Shown: positions 3,021 to 36,399 of the stretch, one piece after another
How the letters are laid out: every line of letters begins with the position of its first letter
Numbering within the stretch: the stretch's first letter is position 1
Source: Opitutia bacterium Tous-C10FEB
Lineage (GTDB): Bacteria; Verrucomicrobiota; Verrucomicrobiia; Opitutales; Opitutaceae
DNA: 41,403 nucleotides
Reading direction: 5' to 3'
NCBI GenBank assembly: GCA_002304425.1
Contig: NEUY01000003.1
Coordinates: 1 to 41,403, forward strand
Translations under genes and position numbers: made by a program
The notes under the pieces: model-generated
What the model saw: the letters and a program-made list of their open reading frames with translations, nothing else
What the model was told of the DNA's origin: nothing
Database searches by the model: none

Positions 3021-3259
3021 GGCGGGGGTAAAAATAACCAAAACAGTAACTAAAAACATCAAGTAATCTCCGGGCTCACGAGACGAGCCCAAAAGAGCCG
3101 TCGAACATTTAGCGCTTACCGCTGTAGCCGCAGTTGTGTTGCTCACTATTTTTGGGCCGAGCTTTGGAGCAACCGTTAGCGCCTTAATTGACGAGTGTTA
3201 AAAAATAGCCACCGGCAAAGCAGCTTGCGCGGGACGATGAACATCCGCCAATTTAAATC

Positions 3260-3820: not shown

Positions 3821-4849
3821 TTAACCGAGACGAGCCGTGAGAGCGGCTACCTGCTTTTCCAATTCACGCATCCGCACGATCATATCCGGTAATTTCTGAA
3901 TGCCGATCCACTGGCGCTTGGCCTGTTTATCGGGCACGGCAGGGAATCCCATCACCGTTTCGCCGTCAGCGACATCCCGCGTCACCCCTGATTTTCCACC
4001 GACGGTGACTTGGCGGCCGATTTTAAGATGCCCGGCCACGCCGCTCTGCGAAGCAATGACGCAATAATCACCAAAGTGAGTGCTCCCCGCAAAACCGCAT
4101 TGGCCCATAATCAGGCAATGCTTACCGAAAACCACGTTATGTCCGATGTGAACGAGGTTATCTATTTTGCAGCCTTCACCAATTATGGTGGAGTCGAGCG
4201 CCGCTCGGTCGATGGTGCAATTAGTCCCAATCTCTACATCATCGTGAATGATTACGTTACCGACTTGGGGGATTTTGAGATGACGCCCTTGATCAAAAAC
4301 ATAACCGTACCCATCGGAACCAATGACCGTGCCCGCGTGAATCGCGACGCGTTGGCCCAGTTGCGTACCGGCATACAGTACGACGTGGGGATACAAGCGC
4401 GTGTCGTCGCCTACGCGGCAGTCACGCCCGAGATGGTTGCCGCCGACTAACACCACACGCGCTCCAATGATTGTGCCGGCGGCGATGACGCAATTAGGAC
4501 CGATATGCGCCGTCGGATTTATCTTAGCTGTAGGGTCAACCAGAGCACTGGAGTGAATCGCCGGGGCGTATTGCGCCGCTGGGAAAAAAAGCTCGAGCAC
4601 TTGCGCAGCCGCAACGCGAGCATTGCGCACTCGAATGATTACTTTGGTCGTAGAAGTAAACGCCCCCGCCACCAAGATGACAGAAGCCGCACTGGCTTCC
4701 GCGGCCGCGAAATAACTATCCCCTTCCGCAAAAGTTATTTCTCCGGCCCGCGCCCCAGCGGCAGCGGCTAGCCCAGTTAAAATAATCGAGCCATCACCGA
4801 TTACCTCACCTTGAACCTGAGTCGCAATCTGCGCAGCCGTGAAATTCAT
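3821..4849 (-). CDS. lpxD: UDP-3-O-(3-hydroxyacyl)glucosamine N-acyltransferase LpxD
   Basis: This 342-residue protein carries out the third step of lipid A synthesis, adding a second hydroxyacyl chain to UDP-3-O-acylglucosamine in the cytoplasm. An N-terminal uridine-binding domain (about 1-100) is followed by a long run of hexapeptide repeats forming a left-handed beta helix (about 100-290) and a C-terminal helix ([19 protein letters not shown]) that packs in the trimer. The catalytic histidine lies in HIGHNVV at H237, and the family motif GSDGYGYV is at about 178-184. It supports an LPS-bearing outer membrane, in agreement with the LptD-like gene near the right end. Other lipid A genes are not adjacent. 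Confidence 0.95.
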
Positions 4850-4866: not shown

Positions 4867-5871
4867 TTATAAGCCGCGCACACCGACCATTTTTTGGGCT
4901 TCAACATCCCAAACCTTCAGACGCAGACAGCGTATAATATCTGTCGGCCACAACGAGGTCGTCTTCGGGAATTGCAATTCGGGAATCGCTTTGAGCACCT
5001 CCGGTAAGCGGTAAAAAGGTATGCGGGAATTTAAATGATGAATGTGATGGTAACCAATATTAGCCGTAAACCAGGCCAGGATCCGACCGGTGTACATCAT
5101 GCTCGATGACTCCAGCGCCGCTTTCTCATAGGTCCAACCATCTTTGTCGCTAAACGATACACCAGGAAAATTATGCTGGGCGTAAAAGAAATAAGCGCCG
5201 ATGCCGTGCATCACAAAATGAGGCACGATCTGGGTCAGCACCAGCATCTGCCAGCCGCCAAAAATCAGGAGCACCGTGCTGATGGAAAAATGGACCACCA
5301 TCGCCAAGAAGCAGTCGAAATGTTTGAGGGGATGGTTAATGAAAGGCTTGATACACATCCCATGAAAAAACATGAAAAGGTAACCAAACATGATGGTCAG
5401 CGGATGACGGATAAATAAATAACCGAAACGCTTAGTCCGCGAACTTTTCTTAAACTGCGCCGTCGTCATAATCGGATACGATCCAATGTGTGAGCCCCGC
5501 AGCTTCGAATTGTGATTGTGATGGTGATTGTGGGAGCTGCGCCAGACGCTGCTCGGACTGAGCGCCAAAATCCCATAAATCCGCATCAAACCTTCGGCTA
5601 GTTTGGAGCGCGGCAAAATCGCATAATGCTGCTGGTCATGATAAATGACGAAAAAGCGGGTCATCAGCAGACCAGCGATGACACTGCAGACCAATTGCAG
5701 ACCTAGATTGAGGTTCCAGACCGTCCCCGCCAAGGTGGCGAGAATGAGCAGCGCGGTGGATAAAATAACCCACCAACTACGCACTGGATTATCTTGGGCG
5801 AAAGGCTTCGTCGCCAAGATGAGTTCAATGCCTTCTTTGGTTTCCGGTTCCTCGTGGTCGTGATCGCTCAT
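4867..5871 (-). CDS. Membrane fatty acid desaturase
   Basis: This 334-residue integral membrane di-iron protein belongs to the fatty acid desaturase family (PF00487). The three histidine clusters are clear: HDQQH at 78-82, HNHHHNHN at 114-121 and the C-terminal HHIHH at 275-279, with a further H233 in YAQHN. Hydrophobic segments lie at about 33-75, 155-172 and 195-230. Such enzymes introduce cis double bonds into acyl chains and so adjust membrane fluidity; regioselectivity cannot be read from the sequence. It lies 17 bases upstream of lpxD on the same strand, so the two may be co-transcribed as an envelope-lipid pair. The upstream region is AT-rich and holds possible promoter elements, none of them strong. 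Confidence 0.9.
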
Positions 5872-5954
5872 ATGCGTTTTAATAAGTGTTCAAATATCAC
5901 ATTCCTGCAAGAAATATGTCACGGATGTATTTACTCGCTCAACGTTTAAGCGAG

Positions 5955-6329
5955 CTACCGCGCGGTGACGGCTTGGTGCGATCCCTCCAAGCGATCGCCT
6001 TCAATAAGAATTTTACGGATGGTTAAGTCGTGCTCGTTTTCGGGGGAAGCTCAAACGCCTTGGCCAGATCCGCTTTTTCATCCAACGCGCCAAGGCCCAG
6101 CGGCCTCAAGAATTTTTCCCCACCGAAGCCTGCTTAAAAAGTTTCACTGGGTTCCAAATTACTAAAAAAACAAACTGCGCAATCCAGGTGGGCAGCGCTA
6201 CGATCCAGTAAAAGCTACCGATATTAAAAAACGGTGAGAGCCACTTAACTGGCCCCACCCCGCATCGAGGAGCATAAGCAAGACCCCCGCCCAGCATACG
6301 ATCAGGAAGCGCCTGAAAACATCTTTCAT
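5955..6329 (-). pseudogene. Small membrane protein broken by three single-base gaps in homopolymers
   Basis: Read leftward from the ATG at 6329, the frame starts well (MKDVFRRFLIVCWAGVLLML, a signal or membrane segment) but is lost at a T6 run. A second frame then carries the hydrophobic stretch FYWIVALPTWIAQFVFLVIW and is lost at a GGGG-AAAAA run. A third runs to a C5 run. A final frame ends in ILIEGDRLEGSHQAVTAR and a TAG at 5957-5955. Adding one base in each run (T6 to T7, G4 to G5, C5 to C6) gives a single smooth 125-residue protein with two membrane segments and a charged C-terminal tail. I do not recognise the family. The three gaps may be real decay or sequencing errors, since all are missing bases in homopolymers. 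Confidence 0.6.
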
Positions 6330-6441
6330 TAATTCGCACGAAAGACGTTGTTTCACGGCGAGTCAGCTCGCCGCGGAGCGACGTTCATTAACGGCCGCGC
6401 GCTGGTGGTCCCGGTTGCCGCTCGCACAAGTTGGTAACCAA

Positions 6442-6512: not shown

Positions 6513-7703
6513 CTAGCGTTTGAGGGACGCGCAAAACCGCGTCAACCGCTCGACGCCCTTGCGAAGAATTTCGTCAGATGTCGCATAGCTCAGCCGCAGG
6601 TAACCTTCCGCCCCGAAGGCTGAGCCAGGAACCGCCGCTACCTTCTCCTGCTCCAGTAGGCGGGCGCAGAAATCAGTATCCTTCAGACCGAAGCTGGAAA
6701 TATTAGGGAATAGATAAAACGCCCCACCCGCCAGTAAGCAGGTCACCCCGGGGATGCGATTGAGCTCAGCGTGGAGGTAGCGGCGGCGACGATCGAAAGC
6801 CGTTTTCATTTCGCTAAGAGCGGCTACGGCCTGCGCCTTCTCTTTGAGCGCAGCAAGCGCTCCATATTGGGCGAACGTCGTCGCATTGGATGACATCTGG
6901 CTCTGCAACTCGGAGCAGGCTTTGGCGATCGGCAGCGGTGCCACCAGCGTCCCGAGACGCCAGCCGGTCATGGCATAAGTTTTAGAAAAACCCGCGACGG
7001 TAATCGTACGCTCCGCCACGGCGGTGCTCAGCGTCGCAAAATTTACGGGCTCATGACCGTCATAGATTAAATGCTCATACATTTCGTCCGCGAGCACATA
7101 GAGATTATGCCGCACCGCTACTTCGGCCAACGCACTCAGTTCAGCCCGCGAATAAATTGCGCCGGTCGGATTTGAAGGAGAATTGAGAATCACGAGCTTG
7201 GTCCGAGGCGTGATGGCTGCGGCCAACAACGCGGGCGTTAATTTAAATCCAGCGCGATCATCACAGAGCACAAATTTGGGCGTCGCCCCTGCGAGCTTAA
7301 TCATCTCGGGATAACTGACCCAGTAAGGCGCGGGGACAATCGCCTCATCGCCCGGACTGCAGGTCGCCAAAATTGCGAGATAACAGGAATATTTTCCGCC
7401 CGGCGATACCACGACTTGGCCGGAGGTTATTTTGTAGCCATACTCCGTCAAATAACGATCAGCGATGGCCTGGCGCAGCGGCTCGATCCCTGGCGTCGGC
7501 GCATACTTAGTCTTGCCGGATTGTAGCGCCGCGATGGCCGCATCTTTAATGAATTGCGGCGTATCAAAATCAGGTTCCCCCGCGGCAAAGCTGCAGACGT
7601 CCTCGCCCGCGGCCTGCAAGGCCTTAGCCTTGGCATCGATCGCGAGGGTCGGCGACGGCGAGATGTTTTTAGCCCAACTAGACAACGGTAACGGCGTGCT
7701 CAT
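6513..7703 (-). CDS. Class I PLP-dependent aminotransferase (aspartate aminotransferase-like)
   Basis: This 396-residue cytoplasmic enzyme belongs to fold-type I subgroup I-beta/gamma. Visible features are [10 protein letters not shown] near the N-terminus, NSPSNPTG (174-181) for PLP-ring contact, ADEMYEHL for the Asp/Tyr pair, the Schiff-base lysine K241 in [14 protein letters not shown], and a C-terminal arginine in YLRLSYATS for the substrate carboxylate. Length and motifs match AspC/AatA-type aspartate or aspartate-prephenate aminotransferases. It would exchange amino groups between aspartate (or aromatic amino acids) and 2-oxoglutarate. It is followed by decayed sequence and preceded by the ribbon-helix-helix gene about 100 bases upstream, so it probably has its own promoter. 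Confidence 0.92.
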
Positions 7704-36013: not shown

Positions 36014-36036
36014 TTGCTAAAGGATTGCTTTAGCAA
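36014..36036. repeat. 8-bp perfect inverted repeat
   Basis: TTGCTAAA at 36014-36021 pairs with TTTAGCAA at 36029-36036 around a 7-base loop, just after the exported-protein gene and before the truncated sensor gene. There is no T-tract on either side, so it may be an operator rather than a terminator. Confidence 0.4.
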
Positions 36037-36054
36037 ATAACCGCCATCCTTCAC

Positions 36055-36399
36055 GTGAGACGCATTCTTATTCGCTGGCAGTTAACCTTGTTCATTATGC
36101 TGATTTGCGGCGTAACGCTTTCTTTGGCGTTCGTCGGGCTTTATTATTACGACGTTCAGCAATTCAACACCGAGGTTCAGCAGAGACTAGAAAAAACCCG
36201 GGGCGGCTTGATGCAAAATTTATTACGCTCCGATTACCCCCATACCTTCTTCGCCGTTCTGCCACGGCGGCTTGACAATCACGACGAGGGGCCAGCGCCC
36301 CCCGAGGTGCTACCGTGGGGGGGGGGATTTTCCCACGATTGGATGTTACCCCTTCGCGGACCATTTAAAGACCAACGTCGACAGCCCGGGCAAAGTTAG
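36055..36399 (+). pseudogene. Truncated membrane sensor (histidine-kinase-like N-terminus)
   Basis: From a GTG at 36055 the frame encodes RRILIRWQLTLFIMLICGVT with a long membrane helix, then YYYDVQQFNTEVQQRLEKTR, a layout typical of the first part of a sensor histidine kinase or other two-helix sensor. It then runs through a Pro/Gly-rich stretch, crosses a ten-G tract and ends at 36399, overlapping the 3' end of glgB on the other strand. No second membrane helix, HAMP or kinase domain follows, so the gene is cut off at the glgB boundary. It might instead be a small intact membrane protein. The sensor reading is inference from the helix and the coiled segment. Confidence 0.45.
36317..36326. 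repeat. Ten-G homopolymer tract
   Basis: G10 lies inside the truncated sensor frame and about 20 bases past the glgB stop. Tracts of this length slip easily in replication and are also hard to sequence. Confidence 0.85.

Follow-up and report, generated by a model that had tools for sequence, protein, structure and literature searches.

Organization of the locus

The window analysed here, 41,403 nucleotides in full, comes from Opitutia bacterium Tous-C10FEB, whose genome is available as a 1.42 Mb assembly that is 70% complete and divided into 71 contigs. Within it, a small gene lies between an aminotransferase gene and a fatty acid desaturase gene, and all three read leftward, on the minus strand. 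The features of the locus are given below by their positions in the window; L006, L007 and L087 are the corresponding loci of three related genomes.

6513–7703, minus strand: class I/II aminotransferase, intact (Pfam E 4.3e-76), upstream of the small gene
6106–6329, minus strand: gene for a putative small two-helix membrane protein (ATG 6329–6327, TGA 6108–6106), with homologues in L007, L006 and L087 and with dN far below dS before and after the break
6226–6231, minus strand: T6 run, codons 33–35; T7 in L006 and L007, the sole frame change backed by relatives
6118–6121, minus strand: G4 run, the second change of the original prediction; unsupported, with the same run and the same TGA in L006
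6042–6046 (plus coordinates), minus strand: C5 run, the third change of the original prediction, within the spacer
5926–6105, minus strand: non-coding spacer containing the proposed tail; substitutions relative to L006 even over codon positions, chance extension 35.7%
5872–5925, minus strand: conserved block with a promoter-like site just upstream of the desaturase (alignment to relatives and promoter scan)
4867–5871, minus strand: fatty acid desaturase, intact (Pfam PF00487, E 7.3e-26), neighbour of the small gene
3821–4849, minus strand: LpxD-like acyltransferase, intact, downstream of the desaturase (Pfam LpxD and hexapeptide repeats)

Against the NCBIfam model for DesA delta-5 desaturases, the desaturase scores 175 bits, far below the cut-off of 500.

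Reading frames of the small gene

A chain of consecutive frames runs on the minus strand from the ATG at 6329 down to 5955. The original prediction had described this relay without giving the strand, and the relay and the three runs at which it called for changes of the same sign are present in the sequence. Reading from the ATG with 0, 1, 2 or 3 one-base changes of the same sign, in runs of at least four bases, spans 43, 74, 102 and 125 codons, respectively. The uncorrected ATG frame encodes 43 residues, and an uncompensated frame change thus truncates the reading (43 codons compared with 74 after one change).

We compared these lengths with shuffled sequence. When the region was shuffled 1,000 times with dinucleotides preserved, 8.9% of the sequences attained 125 codons with three changes, and in a separate set of 1,000 such shuffles, 13.6% attained 74 codons with one change. 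When the tail was shuffled (2,000 sequences), its length of 51 codons was attained with two further changes in 35.7%. The 51-codon tail is a chance-level extension, and the case for the first 74 codons as a predicted coding sequence is one of homology, not of frame openness.

Homologous copies in related genomes

In a search of 150 family genomes, the joined chain matched one genome besides the window's own, over residues 1–69. Searching with the desaturase retrieved L007, which has an enzyme 95% identical to that of the window, and L006, where the identity is 99%. L007 was taken to be G147:C116 and L006 to be G152:C252 (first 400 bases identical); L087 is the locus of G163.

L007 has an uninterrupted ORF of 71 codons (1052–1267) between the aminotransferase and the desaturase, and an intact homologue of the broken window gene therefore exists at the same place. 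The two pieces of the window gene are 79% (residues 1–34) and 80% (residues 34–68) identical to the L007 protein. L006, the nearest relative, has one extra T in the run, stays in frame across it and shares its terminal TGA with the window; its contig begins in codon 32, so that only the 3' part of the gene is present. The gene is also found in L087, where one base is missing at a different place, near codon 15, and a stop of its own follows the second helix. Among the three full-length copies, one is intact and two carry a single deletion, each at a different place. The protein C-termini of the three relatives fall within a few residues of each other, those of L007 and L087 being their own. 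What we call the normal state of the gene is defined by L007 and the 3' part of L006, and all copies are from assemblies, three of which were taken to be metagenome assemblies.

Selection on the gene and the adjacent spacer

Substitution rates were estimated over codons 1–66, leaving out codons at the breaks; the gene is short and dS is near saturation in several pairs, so these values are rough. Between the window and L007, dN is 0.099 and dS is 1.45 (64 codons), and the parts on either side of the break give similar dN/dS values (0.084/1.40 for codons 1–32 and 0.102/1.70 for codons 36–66). The corresponding dN and dS are 0.147 and 1.66 for the window and L087, 0.123 and 0.77 for L007 and L087, and 0.013 and 0.164 for the window and L006 (32 codons). 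Low dN relative to dS both before and after the break suggests that one protein was selected through it.

The DNA behind the TGA behaves differently. Compared with L006, 6 of 122 bases are substituted in the second half of the gene, with no gap outside the T run, whereas the spacer (6108–5926) has 25 substitutions in 182 bases and three gap openings, a rate nearly three times that of the gene. Across the two segments of the proposed tail, these substitutions are spread over the codon positions without bias (2, 3, 3 and 7, 5, 6). Over 170 aligned bases, the spacer differs from that of L007 at 56 positions and from that of L087 at 55, and these alignments contain 19 and 22 gap openings, respectively. 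The DNA alignment of the gene itself with L087 has four gap openings in each half; by codons, the two pair without gaps apart from one deletion and a ragged C-terminus.

These comparisons bear on the original prediction of a single 125-residue protein, interrupted by three breaks of the same sign and ending in a charged tail rich in E, D and R. The three-step reading is indeed open, and two pieces of the tail match L006 in a translated search (E 2.9e-6 and 0.016). However, the first of these matches lies in two L006 frames, and similarity of spacer DNA alone would give both. In all three relatives, the reading ends behind the second helix, at the TGA of the window (6108–6106) in L006 and within a few codons of it in the others, and the tail is at chance level, as noted above. 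The even codon positions and the gap openings relative to L006 identify the supposed tail as spacer DNA. Of the three proposed disruptions, the one in the T6 run holds, while those in the G4 and C5 runs are unsupported by relatives: the latter two changes only bypass a real stop into spacer DNA. We therefore regard a protein of 125 residues as extremely improbable. A reading stitched from several frames can thus be half right, with homology keeping one frame change and the protein and dropping two spurious changes.

The block between the spacer and the desaturase (5872–5925) is strongly conserved, more so than the spacer behind it, with 2, 7 and 8 substitutions in 54 bases relative to L006, L007 and L087, respectively, and two gap openings each relative to L007 and L087. 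It contains a promoter-like site consisting of GTGACA, 18 nt and GATATT, with TG ahead of the second hexamer. A promoter-like match occurs at the same place in scans of the window, L007 and L087, but with two matches per scanned region compared with 0.6–0.9 expected, this is weak evidence by itself. As a separate matter, an RNA family was considered at the locus; the one match (E 0.14, 23 bits compared with a gathering score of 50) was taken to be chance.

Distribution of the small gene

A four-row profile searched against 252 family genomes matched 14 at E ≤ 0.1, of which four were counted as real (E 4.3e-23 or better). These four carriers are the window's genome, G147, G152 and G163, all from one genus. 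Extending the search to 387 phylum genomes gave 22 genomes with a match, including the window's own, the best other at E 6.8e-4. Weak profile matches were considered as distant homologues, and the open frames around eight of these weak places were inspected and judged by eye to be chance.

Of 21 genus genomes, the four with the small gene are also the ones with the desaturase (E ≤ 1e-50). Since the genes are neighbours and the four carrier genomes probably form one clade, this co-occurrence may represent one inheritance event, not four. Among 80 desaturase loci, none beyond L006 and L007 gave a match to the L007 protein better than E 2.2 (the L009 sequence begins within the desaturase, and a few others include little DNA ahead of the enzyme). 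In 20 related loci, other small hydrophobic ORFs preceding the desaturase were also inspected by eye, and none was recognised as the small protein. Searches of phage and plasmid records found nothing at E ≤ 1, no viral contig contained the exact peptide patterns used, and a literature search for an Opitutaceae small protein associated with a desaturase found none.

Cause of the frame change

In the assembly, a T is missing from the run in what would be the loop between the two helices. Translation from the ATG would end after 43 residues, with loss of the second helix and, presumably, of function. The explanation that we think probable is that one T was lost from the run and that the gene, whose intact form has 71–74 residues and is followed by spacer rather than a tail, was freshly inactivated. 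On this reading, the deletion most likely reflects a genuine mutation that recently inactivated a gene on its way to being dispensable, as suggested by the different deletion in a second genome, G163.

Alternatively, the organism may carry an intact gene whose T run was shortened in the assembly by a sequencing or assembly error. The frame change sits in a homopolymer, the run is longer in the nearest relative, L006, and purifying selection is visible until very recently. Contigs also end in or near the small-gene locus in G152 and G163, which could be a sign of assembly trouble. Nevertheless, frame breaks are not seen in the other window ORFs examined. When the 38 window ORFs of at least 100 residues were compared with G152, G147 and G163, respectively, 28, 36 and 32 were intact in one frame, 2, 2 and 4 were partly covered, 8, 0 and 2 were absent from the stretches compared, and none was split. 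In the reverse comparison, 28, 42 and 39 of the relatives' ORFs were intact in the window and 3, 2 and 2 were partly covered; the single ORF of a relative that was split falls where two neighbouring window ORFs meet. This control covers ORFs of at least 100 residues in three relatives.

The comparison with G152 contains eight frame-changing indels in 31,271 aligned ORF bases. Three are in the ORF at 36034–36396, which looks decayed; three are at 3094–3183, around the first possible start of a permease and ahead of its Pfam domain, and two of these cancel; the other two are ahead of the first start codon of their ORFs. For G147 and G163, 35 and 34 indels were listed, which by inspection are mostly cancelling neighbour pairs or changes at gene edges.

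Random error should hit all genes alike and would rarely hit the same gene twice, yet two independent one-base deletions (in the window and in G163) fall in this small gene and none is established elsewhere. We therefore favour real loss and consider an error unlikely, noting that the case for decay over error is an argument from rates. The original prediction had left the choice between a silenced gene and a cluster of sequencing deletions; recent silencing is the better reading, given the different deletion in the second genome and the absence of any split among the 38 ORFs, and a deletion cluster is not needed.

Homopolymer frameshift pseudogenes attributed to recent one-base changes have been described in Blochmannia (PMC3017870). 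As in the cases described there, the window gene has a single indel in a T run, the rest of the gene is conserved and separate breaks occur across related genomes. It differs from them in being a small orphan and in having a run of only 6–7 bases.

Expression could also be corrected despite the missing base, through a −1 ribosomal slip on T TTT TTA or RNA polymerase slippage in the T run, giving some 74-residue protein. The zero frame at 6231–6225 is T TTT TTA, where slipping by −1 would lead into precisely the frame of the relatives; in Blochmannia, some frameshifted homopolymers may be corrected during transcription (PMC3017870). The heptamer is thus in the right frame for a −1 site of this type (PMC5009743), but T TTT TTA arises automatically once a T is lost from the run. 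It differs from such sites in that it is followed by no stable pseudoknot-free structure (z 0.08 and 0.62 relative to shuffles, for two lengths), and L006 and L007 are in one frame at the run, so that the frame change is not conserved among relatives. By eye, the break in L087 is without such a heptamer. U_UUU_UUA is described as much less shift-prone than A_AAA_AAG in E. coli (PMC5009743), and the run is short compared with the Blochmannia tracts counted, which have 9 or more bases (PMC3017870). We consider corrected expression improbable. A more elaborate version, in which a clade-specific membrane protein tied to the desaturase is broken differently across species, still made here by a −1 slip and missed by annotation, is if anything slightly more doubtful.

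The predicted small protein

With recent inactivation as the preferred reading, sequence comparison indicates that the window locus is a genuine lineage-restricted small gene with a predicted product of about 74 residues (71–74) and two putative hydrophobic helices. This agrees with the original prediction of a genuine small Verrucomicrobia membrane protein with an anchor and a second hydrophobic helix, since relatives have homologues and the L007 protein has two hydrophobic stretches (residues 3–21 and 40–58). Basic residues are present at both ends, and the topology that we propose for the membrane is likewise predicted. Structure prediction for the L007 protein and one partial relative gave two long helices and a short third, with low confidence (pLDDT 64.4, pTM 0.34).

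Small two-helix inner-membrane proteins are a general class in bacteria. The protein resembles them in size, in its two hydrophobic stretches and in the basic residues at both ends. It differs in that the L007 protein had no match in Pfam or NCBIfam (E limit 10) and no meaningful family match in PHROGs (E limit 10; a single match, E 0.075), the best match among PDB sequences being at E 1.1. It is therefore a putative small membrane protein without a name or family model, and gene callers may overlook proteins this small.

From its place and shape, the intact protein is probably a small accessory or modulating membrane protein, perhaps one involved in the modification of acyl chains by the adjacent desaturase. 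Judging only from position and co-occurrence, it could modulate or stabilise the desaturase, and any action together with this enzyme would make it a new accessory of lipid desaturation in bacteria. Counter to such a tie, a separate conserved block precedes the desaturase. The gene also appears to be dispensable in two genomes, because it is broken there.

Other observations in the window

Upstream of the small gene, L007 (716–982) and L087 (920–1183, reverse) share an ORF of 88 residues that is 72% identical between them, with 16, 15 and 30 differences at the three codon positions. It is missing from the window, where a remnant with an inverted repeat (6345–6362 and 6367–6384) can be made out by eye at about 6345–6410. 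Among the 21 genus genomes, three matched this ORF, one of them weakly.

At 36034–36399 on the plus strand, the start of an ORF resembles the membrane-anchored start of a larger protein, and a G10 run lies inside it. The frame breaks after about 36225 relative to G152 and G163. The G147 stretches corresponding to window positions 36225 and 36348 are about 4.3 kb apart, and a deletion in the window has therefore probably shortened a larger gene.

The LpxD-like protein (3821–4849, minus strand) is 91–97% identical between the window and the other three desaturase carriers. A match was found in 19 of the 21 genus genomes, and in the 15 others it is 40–45% identical to that of the window, a contrast that reflects either deep divergence or replacement.
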